Source: Terriglobus sp. TAA 43 (GTDB taxonomy: Bacteria; Acidobacteriota; Terriglobia; Terriglobales; Acidobacteriaceae). Taken from it: a stretch of DNA of 64,000 nt. The stretch spans positions 1,488,001 through 1,552,000 of the forward strand of contig NZ_JUGR01000001.1 of NCBI RefSeq assembly GCF_000800015.1, in the 5' to 3' direction. The notes beneath the pieces were generated by a model. It saw nothing but the letters and a program-made list of their open reading frames with translations, ran no database searches and was not told the DNA's origin. The position numbers and the translations under genes were made by a program. Shown here in pieces: positions 1-4,962 of this stretch; the stretch's first letter is position 1; each line of letters starts with the position of its first letter.

Positions 1-134
1 TGAAATGCATCGCCTTTGCACTGGTAGTAATCCGTCTTCTCAAGTGTGCAACCAGGCCCTGGCGCTTTCTGCGCACACAGGGGCAGCACGGTAAAAGCAA
101 ACAGCATGGCGATAAGCAGACGGCAACAACGCAT
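1..134 (-). CDS. Secreted protein, N-terminal fragment, unrecognised
   Basis: Only about 44 codons lie in the window; the gene runs off the left edge. The ATG at 134 is preceded by a GAGG Shine-Dalgarno about 8 nt upstream. The protein starts with MRCCR, then a hydrophobic run (LLIAMLFAFTVLPLCAQ) typical of a signal peptide, probably cleaved near CAQ. The visible mature part has two cysteines (GCTLEK and YYQCKG) that could form a disulfide. It lies 54 bp downstream of the DAO-family gene on the same strand, so the two may be cotranscribed. The family cannot be told from this fragment. Confidence 0.6.
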   Translation of the reverse strand, partial: MRCCRLLIAMLFAFTVLPLCAQKAPGPGCTLEKTDYYQCKGDAF

Positions 135-188
135 CCTTGTCCTCACTCAACAATTAGATGCGCTTTGCTGCTGAATCTACACATCGCC

Positions 189-1451
189 CTAAGCTGTCAC
201 CCTGGTTCCACGCTTCGCAACGATGGGTTCCATACGGCTGTACAGTTCCTGCAGTATCTTCACGCCTGCTTCGGCAGCAGCATGATCTGGCGACTCATTG
301 CTATCGTTCCAGCCTTCTTCTTCGCCACCAATATTCGGCTGCACCACAATGCCATCACGCCGCGCAAGCAGGTTCAGGCCCTTGTATCCGATGCCATAGT
401 TCACGCCCTCCTGTGGGATGAGCCAAGCAATCTGGCCACGCACCGGAACAATGCTTTGGTCGCTCCATAACGCCTTCGAGTCATAGCCTGTGCAGCAAAA
501 CACAACGCTCTCTTTCAACGAGGCGAACTCATTGGGTTCATGGAACTCGCGCATCTCAAGGCGTCCGCCTGCAAGATAGAACTCCTGCATCAACAACTTC
601 GCGTATCCGGCAACATTGAACGTCAGCGACGAATTACGACGCACATACTTCGTGGGGAACGGTGTCGAGCCGGACGGCATGTCTTTCGATTTCGGCGTGA
701 TGTCCGCGATGCTTTGGCTGTAGCGCGCGAACTCGTGCACCTGTTTTGTTCTGTCAGCAGGATCGGCCGCGGTATTGGGATCAACAGGACGATTGCGATC
801 GCGCGGCGGATCATCCGAGAGCTGATAACGATCGGTCCATTCAATCGGAGAGCCGGCCACGCCAAGATAGCTGTTGTACATAGTCCATGAGGTGCGCGCC
901 ATGCGTTCCCACAGTGCAGCGAAATCTGCAGACGCATCCGTGCTGAGTGCCACGCGTGAATCCGGTGTCCAGGAACCAGTGGCACGTACGCTGCGAATAT
1001 ACGGCGCCGTCTCTTTCGCGTAGATGGTCACCTTGTAGCCCATGCGTTGCGCGGTCAACGCCGTCGTCAGCCCAAGCGCACCTGCGCCGATCACAGCGCA
1101 TTCCTTCACTCCCGGTGCGGCTTCCATCGCCTTGCGCACGACCACATCTGCCGCACCCCATGAAAGCGACCATCCGCTGCCACCATGACCGTAGTTCGTC
1201 ACGACGGTCTTATCGCCCACCTTCACCACATCCATTCGCGGTCCCACTGCACGAAACGGCCGCAGACATACAGTGATGCGAAAGATGCGGTCTACATCCG
1301 CGCGAATGGGAAGAATGTTTCCCGGCACATCATAAAAAGGAAGTGCGGGTGCTGTTGCGGCAGCAGGCGTTGTAACGTGCTTTGCGCACCCCTGCAGAAG
1401 GCTAAAGCCGGTAAGTGCTGCCGATCCATGAAGAAATGAACGACGGTCCAT
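189..1451 (-). CDS. DAO-family FAD-dependent oxidoreductase, apparently circularly permuted lipoprotein
   Basis: A 420-residue protein related to D-amino-acid oxidases (FAD-dependent oxidation of D-amino acids or similar amines). The start at 1451 (MDRRSF) is chosen because GGAGAGAG lies just upstream; the reading frame stays open further 5'. The N-terminus has RR, a hydrophobic stretch and LLQGC, a lipobox, so it is probably an exported lipoprotein (Tat-type RR possible). Order of motifs: LRPFRAVGPR (about 63-72) and NYGHGGSGWSLSWG (about 86-99), then the Rossmann GAGALG (122-127), then CTGYDSKALW and PVRGQIAW near the C-terminus. In ordinary D-amino-acid oxidases the NYGHGG segment is C-terminal, after the GRGQI segment. 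Here it precedes the Rossmann motif, suggesting a circular permutation. Substrate is unknown. Confidence 0.85.
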   Translation of the reverse strand: MDRRSFLHGSAALTGFSLLQGCAKHVTTPAAATAPALPFYDVPGNILPIRADVDRIFRITVCLRPFRAVGPRMDVVKVGDKTVVTNYGHGGSGWSLSWGAADVVVRKAMEAAPGVKECAVIGAGALGLTTALTAQRMGYKVTIYAKETAPYIRSVRATGSWTPDSRVALSTDASADFAALWERMARTSWTMYNSYLGVAGSPIEWTDRYQLSDDPPRDRNRPVDPNTAADPADRTKQVHEFARYSQSIADITPKSKDMPSGSTPFPTKYVRRNSSLTFNVAGYAKLLMQEFYLAGGRLEMREFHEPNEFASLKESVVFCCTGYDSKALWSDQSIVPVRGQIAWLIPQEGVNYGIGYKGLNLLARRDGIVVQPNIGGEEEGWNDSNESPDHAAAEAGVKILQELYSRMEPIVAKRGTRVTA

Positions 1452-1665
1452 CGAAATCTCTCTCCCTTCGTGGTTGAAAGAAAACCATGCAAGAAGCCAT
1501 GCGGATGCACGGCTATAAATGAAAATGTCTGCGGAATGAGCGAGGGTGTACTTCCTCACTTATAACCGAGATGTCTCGTTTTCACATGCAGAAACACTCA
1601 TTTTCCCCGGAATTGCCCACGGAGTAGCGCATCTTCCCCGCGTCTGCGAGACAATAGAAGCAGTC

Positions 1666-2901: not shown

Positions 2902-4053
2902 ATGGAAGCAATCATCCACTACGTAGAAGATCTTCAATTCGCTTGCTTCGCATTAGTTTTCAGCATTATGGCGCTGCAGTCGCGCCGCGATCGCACCATC
3001 CGATTTGTCTGCTGCAGTTATCTGCTGGCAACGCTGGTGTCCATCATCGACGTTACGTTGCCACATCCCTACAGCCCACTGACCAATGCTGGCATTCTCA
3101 CAGTGCTAAGCCTGCGCTACGCAGTATTGGCCGCAGGTCTGGTGTACTTCACCCGCAATTCTGAGTGGGCTTCGAAGATATCCTTCCTCCTTGCCGGAGT
3201 CTCGCTCCTACTCATCGGCCTGTCATTCACTTCGTTGGCTGGACCGCGGCAGCTTGCGGTCTACTACTTTGTTCTCGCGTGGCAGCAGGCGCTTCTTGTA
3301 CTTGTGGTCATGCGCTCCAGCGAATCGTCGACGCGCATTCCTCGCGTGCTACTGGCATTCCTGTTTCTGATTTCCGTGGGATACCGCCTGAACCAGGTGC
3401 ATTTTGTGCTCTCGGCAAAAACTGCCCACGATGTCTGGCTACGCAATGTTGGTTTGTTCATCAACGGCACTGTGCTGAGTGGTCTGCTTCCCTTCACTAT
3501 CGTGTGGATGATGAACGCTCGCGATCACGCGAATCTATTGCAACAGAGCCTGCTGGACCCATTAACCGGGCTTCTGAATCGTCGCGGGCTAAACGAAGCC
3601 GCGGATCGCGAACTAAAGCGCTACTCCCGTTCGCAACAGGAATTCGCCGTTGCAGTGGCGGACATTGATCACTTTAAGAAGTTGAACGACAGACATGGCC
3701 ACGCCTTTGGCGACGAGGTTCTGGTGGATTTCTCCGTGATCTGTCAGACAGAGTTGAGAAGCTATGACGTCTCTGCCCGCAGCGGTGGCGAGGAGTTTAT
3801 GCTGCTGCTTCCTCACACATCACAAGATGCGGCCATGTTGGTACTGGAACGCATCCGCGAACGATTTGAAGCAAGCACTCCTTTGGAATCCGGCCCCAAC
3901 ACAGTGAGTATCGGCGTGACATCCACGCGCGCTCGCACAGATGTCACCTGGGACCAGCTACAAAAAGAAGCGGACAAGGCAATGTACGATGCGAAGCATC
4001 TGGGCCGTAATAGAACCATGATCTATGACCCAGCAAGCGATACTGCGCTGTAA
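2902..4053 (+). CDS. Membrane diguanylate cyclase (GGDEF domain)
   Basis: A 383-residue protein that should make cyclic di-GMP from two GTP. Residues 1 to about 210 are mostly hydrophobic with around seven membrane segments and no recognisable extracytoplasmic domain. The GGDEF domain begins near DPLTGLLNRRGL. The active-site loop is GGEEF (295-299), a catalytically competent form. The product-inhibition I-site is present: RSYD (286-289), five residues before GGEEF. It is followed 68 bp later, on the same strand, by an EAL phosphodiesterase gene, so synthesis and breakdown of the same messenger are encoded side by side. The signal sensed by the membrane part is unknown. Confidence 0.93.
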   Translation: MEAIIHYVEDLQFACFALVFSIMALQSRRDRTIRFVCCSYLLATLVSIIDVTLPHPYSPLTNAGILTVLSLRYAVLAAGLVYFTRNSEWASKISFLLAGVSLLLIGLSFTSLAGPRQLAVYYFVLAWQQALLVLVVMRSSESSTRIPRVLLAFLFLISVGYRLNQVHFVLSAKTAHDVWLRNVGLFINGTVLSGLLPFTIVWMMNARDHANLLQQSLLDPLTGLLNRRGLNEAADRELKRYSRSQQEFAVAVADIDHFKKLNDRHGHAFGDEVLVDFSVICQTELRSYDVSARSGGEEFMLLLPHTSQDAAMLVLERIRERFEASTPLESGPNTVSIGVTSTRARTDVTWDQLQKEADKAMYDAKHLGRNRTMIYDPASDTAL

Positions 4054-4121
4054 CCGCGTTCGCTATGAAAAATCCTGCTTTGTGACTCATCCGATTCCGG
4101 TTTCGCGCCGATATAGCCTAC

Positions 4122-4892
4122 ATGGAACTATCTTCCCCCGATTCCGATGAGCTCAAGACCGTCGTCCCGTTCAGCATGGCGTTTCAACCCATCGTGAACG
4201 TCACCACTGGTAGCGTCTATGCCTACGAAGCGCTGGTACGCGGTCCCCAGGGACAAAGTGCTGCGAGCATACTCGCACGCCTTAAAGAAGACGACTTGTT
4301 TCTGTTTGACCAAGGCTCCCGCAGCCGCGCCATGACCCTGGCAACAAATCTGGGCATCGTGAAACTGGATGCGGCACTATCAATCAATTTTCTTCCGCGG
4401 GCCATCCGCACTCCTGAAGCATGCAGCACAATGACGCTTACTGCCGCCCGGTCACTGAACTTTCCCTGCAATCGGCTGATCTTTGAAGTGACGGAGTCAG
4501 AGCGTGTCCTCGACGCGGAGCAAGTCGAGGCGATCGCGCGCGAGTATCAGCGCCATGGTTTTCGCATTGCCATTTCCATCGATGATCTGGGGTCAGCGGT
4601 CTCCGGAAAGTCTGTGCGCAAGCAAATACGAGCAGACATTTTAAAGCTCGATATGGCCATCACGCGGAACCTGCACCTGCGCCCCCGTGCTCAGGCAGCC
4701 ATTGTCTCTCTGCAGAACGCATGCACCGCAGAAGGCATCGATCTGATTGCAGAAGGCGTGGAAACCGTGGAAGAGTATCTCGCGTTGTTACGTTGCGGCT
4801 TGGAATACATGCAGGGATATCTGTTTGCGAGGCCCGCATTCGAATCTCTTCCTGAATTCGCATTACCAACGATTACCGCGATGCATGCGTGA
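4122..4892 (+). CDS. EAL-domain cyclic di-GMP phosphodiesterase
   Basis: A compact 256-residue cytoplasmic protein that is essentially one EAL domain, predicted to hydrolyse c-di-GMP to pGpG. Catalytic landmarks are present: EALVRG (E36), SINFLP, FEVTES, the Asp pair in SIDDLGSA, the Lys in LKLDMA, the Glu in AEGVET, and QGYLFARP. Loop 6 reads DDLGSA rather than the common DDFGTG, which may tune activity. It has no sensory domain, so control probably comes through expression or partners; the neighbouring GGDEF gene is the obvious functional partner. It ends before a bidirectional terminator shared with convergent infB. Confidence 0.92.
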   Translation: MELSSPDSDELKTVVPFSMAFQPIVNVTTGSVYAYEALVRGPQGQSAASILARLKEDDLFLFDQGSRSRAMTLATNLGIVKLDAALSINFLPRAIRTPEACSTMTLTAARSLNFPCNRLIFEVTESERVLDAEQVEAIAREYQRHGFRIAISIDDLGSAVSGKSVRKQIRADILKLDMAITRNLHLRPRAQAAIVSLQNACTAEGIDLIAEGVETVEEYLALLRCGLEYMQGYLFARPAFESLPEFALPTITAMHA

Positions 4893-4962
4893 TCGCGCAA
4901 AAAACAACGTCGCAAGATTTTCGCTTGATGCCCAGGAAGGACGCGTCGGCTCTGACGCCAAC

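Follow-up and report, generated by a model that had tools for sequence, protein, structure and literature searches.

Does the window, the 64,000-nucleotide stretch of Terriglobus sp. TAA 43 analysed here (contig NZ_JUGR01000001.1, positions 1,488,001 to 1,552,000), encode a D-amino-acid oxidase (DAAO) whose sequence blocks stand in rotated order? Among flavoenzymes DAAO is a textbook case, with applications in medicine and industry. For one gene on the minus strand a first-pass annotation had proposed that the C-terminal DAAO block was moved ahead of the Rossmann motif by circular permutation, with each block present once, and that the protein begins with a lipobox. According to our analysis this gene very probably codes for a permuted, exported DAAO-like flavoenzyme, which is called the window protein in the following.

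The translated frame confirmed the proposed arrangement. In DAAO and D-aspartate oxidase (DASPO) the blocks run from the Rossmann motif through NCTG, RGQ and RPxR to YGHGG, an order that was not found in the window protein. Its own order is MDRRSFLHGSAALTGFSLLQGC, a tether, RPFR, NYGHGGSGWSLSWG (residues 86–99, N-terminal to GAGALG), GAGALG, CTGYDSKALW, PVRGQIAW and IGGEEEGWND, and by eye each DAAO block is present once. Because of this order the protein was filed as a member of a permuted sister lineage and not as an ordinary DAAO. DAO (PF01266) was the sole Pfam family above its cut-off (64.7 bits, cut-off 27.9), and its best stretch covered profile positions 2–299 of 353, with the C-terminal part of the profile missing. 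Among the 25 NCBIfam matches listed for the window protein none exceeded its own cut-off. The open frame extends 36 codons further 5′ of the ATG, to a GTG at 1559. The ATG is favoured as start codon, since the relatives align from the methionine of MDRR and the sequence AAGGGAG precedes the ATG.

Profile and sequence searches placed the two parts of the protein on DAAO chains in crossed order. A phmmer search of PDB sequences gave a whole-chain E value of 2e-10 for the DAAO 7ct4; query residues 56–112 matched residues 320–376 of this chain (E 1.9e-5 for the stretch), while residues 117–169 matched residues 25–77, which is weak alone (E 62). A profile of 21 relatives in native order (A1) matched human DASPO (6rkf) in two crossed pieces, profile 105–368 on chain 10–270 (E 4.3e-30, 108.3 bits) and profile 51–102 on chain 280–334 (E 7.7e-10, 41.6 bits). 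When ten relatives were rotated at the Rossmann strand and made into a profile (A3), this yielded one continuous match to the same chain (13–335, 174 bits). With hhalign the comparison to one canonical acidobacterial DAAO improved from E 5.7e-26 over 256 columns for native A1 to E 2.5e-48 over 309 columns for rotated A3.

For the rotation control we built a profile from 17 canonical sequences, leaving out each canonical protein when it was itself scored. Rotation raised the best-domain score against this profile for 53 of 53 permuted proteins, with a median gain of 61.9 bits and a minimum of 47.8, and the window protein rose from 80.1 to 129.7 bits. Canonical proteins that were cut and rejoined the other way scored lower in 17 of 17 cases. 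The rotated sequences carry artificial joins, and the 53 and 17 cases are not all independent, because the sets hold near-copies (e.g. L008/L016, L079/L080, L163/L164). The alignment places the new termini near pig DAAO residues 270–275. As far as sequence can tell, the window protein and its family represent a real circular permutation of DAAO, as had been claimed.

A single fused sequence would show the same order if an unrelated or duplicated DAAO tail had been joined ahead of a truncated DAAO by chimera formation or misassembly in this genome only. Such an origin is extremely improbable in view of the homologues. All 53 rows, which come from three phyla and several collections, have the permuted order. 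The search for homologues with the same block order, which the first-pass annotation had called for, yielded 52 distinct frames, and GHGG precedes the Rossmann motif in all 51 in which both motifs were readable. The distance between GHGG and GxGxxG at the join is nearly constant, with 33 residues in 35 of these frames, 35 residues in nine and 32 to 69 in the other seven. Evolutionary distances calculated from the moved block and from the rest of the protein co-vary (Mantel r 0.866 for 42 non-redundant of 50 rows; 0 of 2000 permutations as high), which argues that both parts travelled together. The ratio of nonsynonymous to synonymous substitution rates (dN/dS) against two congeners was 0.008 and 0.03 for the moved block, compared to 0.03 and 0.044 for the whole gene; signal and tether are the least constrained part (0.08 and 0.10). 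The 20 Acidobacteriota genomes that carry the permuted form showed no second, canonical DAAO gene as possible donor of the tail, at most eight candidates being scored in each. A chimera standing among homologues of usual order had also been considered at the outset; this explanation fails, as the close relatives are permuted and all canonical DAAOs found are distant and fall on the opposite side of the tree. A frameshift or fusion artefact of one genome was rejected on the basis of the family-wide permuted order.

The tree is unrooted and comprises 53 permuted and 17 canonical rows, the latter consisting of eight acidobacterial sequences, six sequences from plasmid records (including Vibrio, actinobacteria and a haloarchaeon) and three PDB chains. 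All permuted rows lie on one side of a branch with support 95/87, which occurred in 95% of 200 bootstrap trees, and a smaller, quicker tree of 50 permuted and eight canonical rows agrees (support 99). In this unrooted tree the sampled permuted members group as would be expected from one event. They form three groups, A (21 rows, including the window protein), B (26 rows) and C (six rows). The wider superfamily has the canonical block order, and the permuted order is thus regarded as derived.

Column mapping assigned the residues of the active site. Pig DAAO Arg283, the binder of the substrate carboxylate, corresponds to R64; all 53 permuted and all 17 canonical rows have Arg in this column. 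Gly313 of the pig enzyme corresponds to G91 (Gly in 53/53 permuted and 16/17 canonical rows), and the three glycines of the GxGxxG fingerprint (G122, G124, G127) are present in all 53 permuted rows. YGHGGxG was found at Y87–G93 and the Arg-Pro pair at R64–P65, the leading Gly of GxRPxR being Cys62 in the window protein. For pig Tyr224, 39 of the 53 permuted rows have a gap, and the canonical rows do not conserve this residue either. At the position of pig Tyr228 the window protein has N360; Tyr occurs here in 2 of 21 rows of group A, 15 of 26 of group B, 6 of 6 of group C and 13 of 17 canonical rows. According to PMC9844085, a broad set of DAAOs has in common only the fingerprint and the Arg that binds the carboxylate, along with its Pro; the Tyr is not conserved, and bacterial DAAOs add GxRPxR and YGHGGxG.

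The lipobox noted in the first-pass annotation stands and can be sharpened to a signal for the twin-arginine translocation (Tat) pathway. MDRRSFLHGSAALTGFSLLQGC contains twin Arg residues (RRSFL) and the lipobox LQGC with Cys22, and we assign to the window protein a predicted Tat lipoprotein signal, with Pfam TAT_signal reaching 14.4 bits, under its cut-off of 22.7. A pattern rule called a twin-Arg signal in 46 of 52 members and twin Arg together with a lipobox in 42; L019, L020, L036 and L071 have a signal but no lipobox Cys by this rule. Six members received no call. Three of these (L073, L077, L086) have a twin Arg by eye, a core Pro having broken the rule, L084 is incomplete, and L034 and L085 are without a signal. 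L086 belongs to group C, which is mostly without signal, and by eye the signal is absent from the members of Nonomuraea, Mesorhizobium, Bradyrhizobium and Rhizobium. Members of groups A and B are presumably exported. Export is predicted for the window protein but not for the family as a whole: since members without a signal have the permuted order, export is no necessary companion of the permutation and the two are separable. For the same reason the idea of a permutation purely as an export device was discarded. The tree does not say whether the exported or the signal-less state is older.

Features of the permuted DAAO-like gene in the window (positions in the window; residues of the window protein)
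Feature	Position	Strand	Remarks
Coding sequence of permuted DAAO-like lipoprotein	189..1451	minus	420 aa + stop, from ATG
AAGGGAG, likely ribosome-binding site	1462..1468	minus	10 bases 5′ of ATG; direct reading of sequence
Tat-type signal MDRRSFLHGSAALTGFSLLQGC with terminal lipobox LQGC, residues 1–22	1386..1451	minus	direct reading; weak Pfam TAT_signal match; family pattern
Ala/Pro-rich tether, residues 23–53	1293..1385	minus	direct reading
Moved block, residues 54–113, homologous to canonical DAAO C-terminal segment	1113..1292	minus	PDB-sequence and profile searches, column mapping
RPFR, residues 64–67	1251..1262	minus	R64, pig DAAO Arg283 equivalent; column mapping
NYGHGGSG, residues 86–93	1173..1196	minus	G91, pig DAAO Gly313 equivalent; column mapping
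GAGALG, residues 122–127, FAD-binding Rossmann fingerprint	1071..1088	minus	direct reading and column mapping
CTGYDSKALW, residues 320–329	465..494	minus	direct reading; C320 kept in 52/52 family members
PVRGQIAW, residues 336–343	423..446	minus	direct reading and column mapping
N360, at pig DAAO Tyr228 position	372..374	minus	column mapping
IGGEEEGWND, residues 374–383, then new C-terminal stretch	303..332	minus	direct reading and column mapping

At an E value of 0.01 or better, the window genome (4.95 Mb) holds one copy of the permuted gene. Two congeners have full-length homologues that are 97% and 93% identical to the window protein, and the closest named relative among the matches is the Terriglobus metagenome-assembled genome (MAG) L031 with 75%. 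The window protein matched 20 of 247 Acidobacteriota genomes at 1e-8 and 17 of 61 genomes of a sample of relatives at 1e-10; within the latter its own genus accounted for 16 matches in 19 genomes, G250 containing a fragment only (own genome included in the first and last counts). In a sample of Pseudomonadota 20 of 398 genomes matched at 1e-20, among them G299 (the genome of the Rhizomicrobium MAG L032). When 297 genomes of one order of Pseudomonadota were searched with a group C profile, five matched at 1e-40. Two of the five belong to group C; the other three scored 182–201 bits, and both whose starts were read have the permuted order. Permuted members in named records come from Kozakia baliensis, Niveispirillum, Mesorhizobium onobrychidis, Bradyrhizobium elkanii and Rhizobium ruizarguesonis, and from Nonomuraea gerenzanensis of the Actinomycetota. 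The annotated records (Kozakia, Mesorhizobium, Bradyrhizobium, Rhizobium) are labelled just 'FAD-dependent oxidoreductase'.

The rotated profile, applied to the 247 Acidobacteriota genomes at 1e-12, distinguished 20 permuted forms (two or more split matches) from eight canonical ones (one continuous match) and one fragment. No genome in this set held both forms, with at most eight candidates scored per genome. In the 398 genomes of the Pseudomonadota sample the canonical form was not found by the rotated profile, a weak absence given that about five candidates per genome were scored. Scans of viral contigs revealed family members on three contigs only, and phage records gave no match to the window protein.

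Several single loci showed peculiarities. On an IMG/VR contig (L033/L106) the permuted DAO gene at 1420–2451 lies between terminase-like and portal-like genes (by eye); this context resembles a prophage or gene-transfer-agent cluster, and the DAO frame stops early compared to its relatives. The permuted DAO gene of the Mesorhizobium onobrychidis plasmid pOM4 (L180, 4926–5989) is annotated as two frames, split at the Rossmann motif. A 79-residue frame in G141 (L168), which carries the same family code (f21) as L019 and L020, resembles the C-terminal part of the permuted form and is probably a decayed copy. L012, L021 and L030 share a C-terminal tail (NFFGLES, DFFDRES or DFFGLES). The acidobacterial genome G041 has four permuted copies (L049, L055, L056, L063), two of them about 14 kb apart.

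Gene neighbourhoods were obtained for 39 loci, of which six (L053, L058, L091, L096, L102, L103) were left out as the gene caller had missed the DAO gene; the others were read by eye, mostly with three or four genes per side. Downstream of the window gene follow genes for a 164-aa exported protein, a subclass B3 metallo-beta-lactamase, a DUF2911 protein and an M24 peptidase; by eye, DUF2911 and M24 peptidase genes also stand next to L031 and L048. The gene for the 164-aa protein occupies window positions 1–146 and continues to the left as L045 9655–10146. At the applied thresholds neither Pfam nor NCBIfam gave a match for its product, and by eye a similar small exported protein follows the DAO gene at L031. 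The metallo-beta-lactamase gene (L045 8742–9605, minus strand; NCBIfam 305.6 bits, cut-off 240) is the second gene downstream of the DAO gene. In Kozakia the genes 5′ of the DAO gene on the same strand encode a beta-lactamase-family serine hydrolase, a DadA-like protein (361 bits, cut-off 383), a second such hydrolase and an S9 peptidase. Cytochrome c is encoded by the next gene after DAO, and an S15 peptidase and a TonB receptor are encoded on the opposite strand. CxxCH-bearing neighbours, identified by motif only, were seen at L049 and L087.

Seven loci represent group C, namely the six of the tree (in which L034 also represents L035, with which it is identical) and the gene of Mesorhizobium, assigned on the basis of 48.6% identity to L034. 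At four of the seven (L179, L180, L181, L182) the adjoining gene encodes a thiamine-diphosphate (TPP) enzyme, which is closest to indolepyruvate/phenylpyruvate decarboxylase, and at a fifth (L105) another TPP enzyme is encoded two genes away. A decarboxylase beside a presumed producer of 2-oxo acids would fit DAAO chemistry. On the rhizobial plasmids of L181 and L182 a gene for an FAD_binding_4/BBE (berberine-bridge-type) oxidoreductase (3366–4892 and 3482–4912, respectively) lies just 5′ of the signal-less permuted DAO gene, and oxidoreductase, DAO and TPP enzyme form an apparent three-gene run.

A number of observations count against a single permuted lineage of exported DAAO-like enzymes. 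The tree support is good and not overwhelming, only 17 canonical rows are included, and three of these (L186, 7ct4, L165) carry long-branch flags. Most neighbourhoods read have no recurrent partner, and Pfam-verified c-type cytochromes occur near three loci only (L036, L032, L055); a universal cytochrome partner was dismissed as weak on this ground. No TPP enzyme was in view at two of the seven group C loci (L034, L104), and the TPP proteins scored 194–222 bits, far under the cut-off of 554.5 of the models that give them their name. The window protein lacks Tyr228, as do 19 of 21 rows of its subgroup, in which the GGT turn is altered as well. Two AlphaFold models had mean predicted local distance difference test (pLDDT) scores of 52.8 and 52.2, and sequential aligners applied to these low-pLDDT models matched DAAO chains from the Rossmann strand onward. 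With its position unsettled in the models, the N-terminal segment might serve in a new role (e.g. as lid or dimer-swap element), and another subunit would then complete the active site in trans; oligomer formation could be promoted by tether and membrane anchor. Nevertheless, the near-constant length between GHGG and the Rossmann motif suits a join within one chain, and we consider such a domain swap improbable.

It is possible, if somewhat doubtful, that the protein is no longer an amino-acid oxidase and acts on another substrate (an amine, imino acid, sugar amine or cell-wall derivative) or as a dehydrogenase passing electrons to cytochrome c. The changed Tyr228 position and GGT turn would fit such a function, as would the cytochrome c gene of Kozakia and the cytochromes near two other loci. 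On the other hand, all permuted rows retain the Arg283 and Gly313 equivalents, decarboxylase-like and DadA-like neighbours are found at some loci, and Tyr228 is reported as non-conserved among DAAOs (PMC9844085). We therefore regard a DAAO-like oxidation of an amino-acid-type substrate as probable. The substrate is probably other than that of DAAO because of the Asn at the Tyr228 position.

By sequence, the chain was opened before the Arg-Pro segment, at the site of the new termini named above, and the linker of near-constant length now connects the former C-terminal end with the first Rossmann strand. For activity, substrate and electron acceptor we infer the following course. The protein may fold like DAAO and bind flavin adenine dinucleotide (FAD) in the cytoplasm; the folded form would then be exported by Tat and lipid-anchored at Cys22. 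The C–N bond of an amino-acid-like substrate would be oxidised via hydride transfer to FAD, with the carboxylate held by R64 and the amine by the backbone of G91. The expected products are a 2-oxo acid and ammonia, and the electrons may pass to oxygen or, in some hosts, to a c-type cytochrome. A more far-reaching proposal, which seems unlikely to us in its entirety, is that one permutation founded a lineage in at least three phyla, that the freed N-terminus allowed a Tat lipoprotein anchor, and that the result is a membrane-tethered periplasmic dehydrogenase of D-amino acids or cell-wall-derived amines with c-type cytochromes and not oxygen as electron acceptors.

A natural permutant under strong purifying selection implies that the DAAO fold tolerates new termini and offers a nature-tested cut site for engineering. 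Permuted proteins will be misread by any search or alignment that takes the usual motif order for granted. An exported, lipid-anchored member would put DAAO-type chemistry outside the cytoplasm, where cell-wall D-amino acids are first met. The question whether re-permuting to the canonical order alters anything beyond the anchoring site has become testable.

The first-pass annotation knew of no description of the permuted form. Among titles and abstract starts of the open PMC literature, which excludes subscription papers and preprints, we found no description of a permuted DAAO, and we provisionally regard the family as undescribed; the text of PMC9844085 contains none of the terms 'permut', 'signal' and 'Acidobacter'. 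DadA D-amino-acid dehydrogenase and glycine oxidase share the Pfam DAO superfamily PF01266 with the window protein, whose best stretches on their NCBIfam models lie around the Rossmann motif and reach 28.9 and 22.4 bits compared to cut-offs of 494 and 250.8. The canonical DAAOs of other Acidobacteriota (8 of 247 genomes), one of which gave the hhalign match to the rotated family profile, have the canonical order and, in the frames read, no export signal by eye. With the bacterial DAAOs described in PMC9844085 the window protein has RPxR, YGHGGxG and the dinucleotide fingerprint in common, but RPxR and YGHGGxG precede the fingerprint and Cys62 replaces the Gly of GxRPxR. Compared to DASPO (6rkf), Rasamsonia DAAO (7ct4) and pig DAAO (1an9), the family shares the blocks, the Arg283 and Gly313 equivalents and the FAD fingerprint, whereas its order is permuted and the window protein has a predicted Tat lipoprotein signal and Asn in place of Tyr228.
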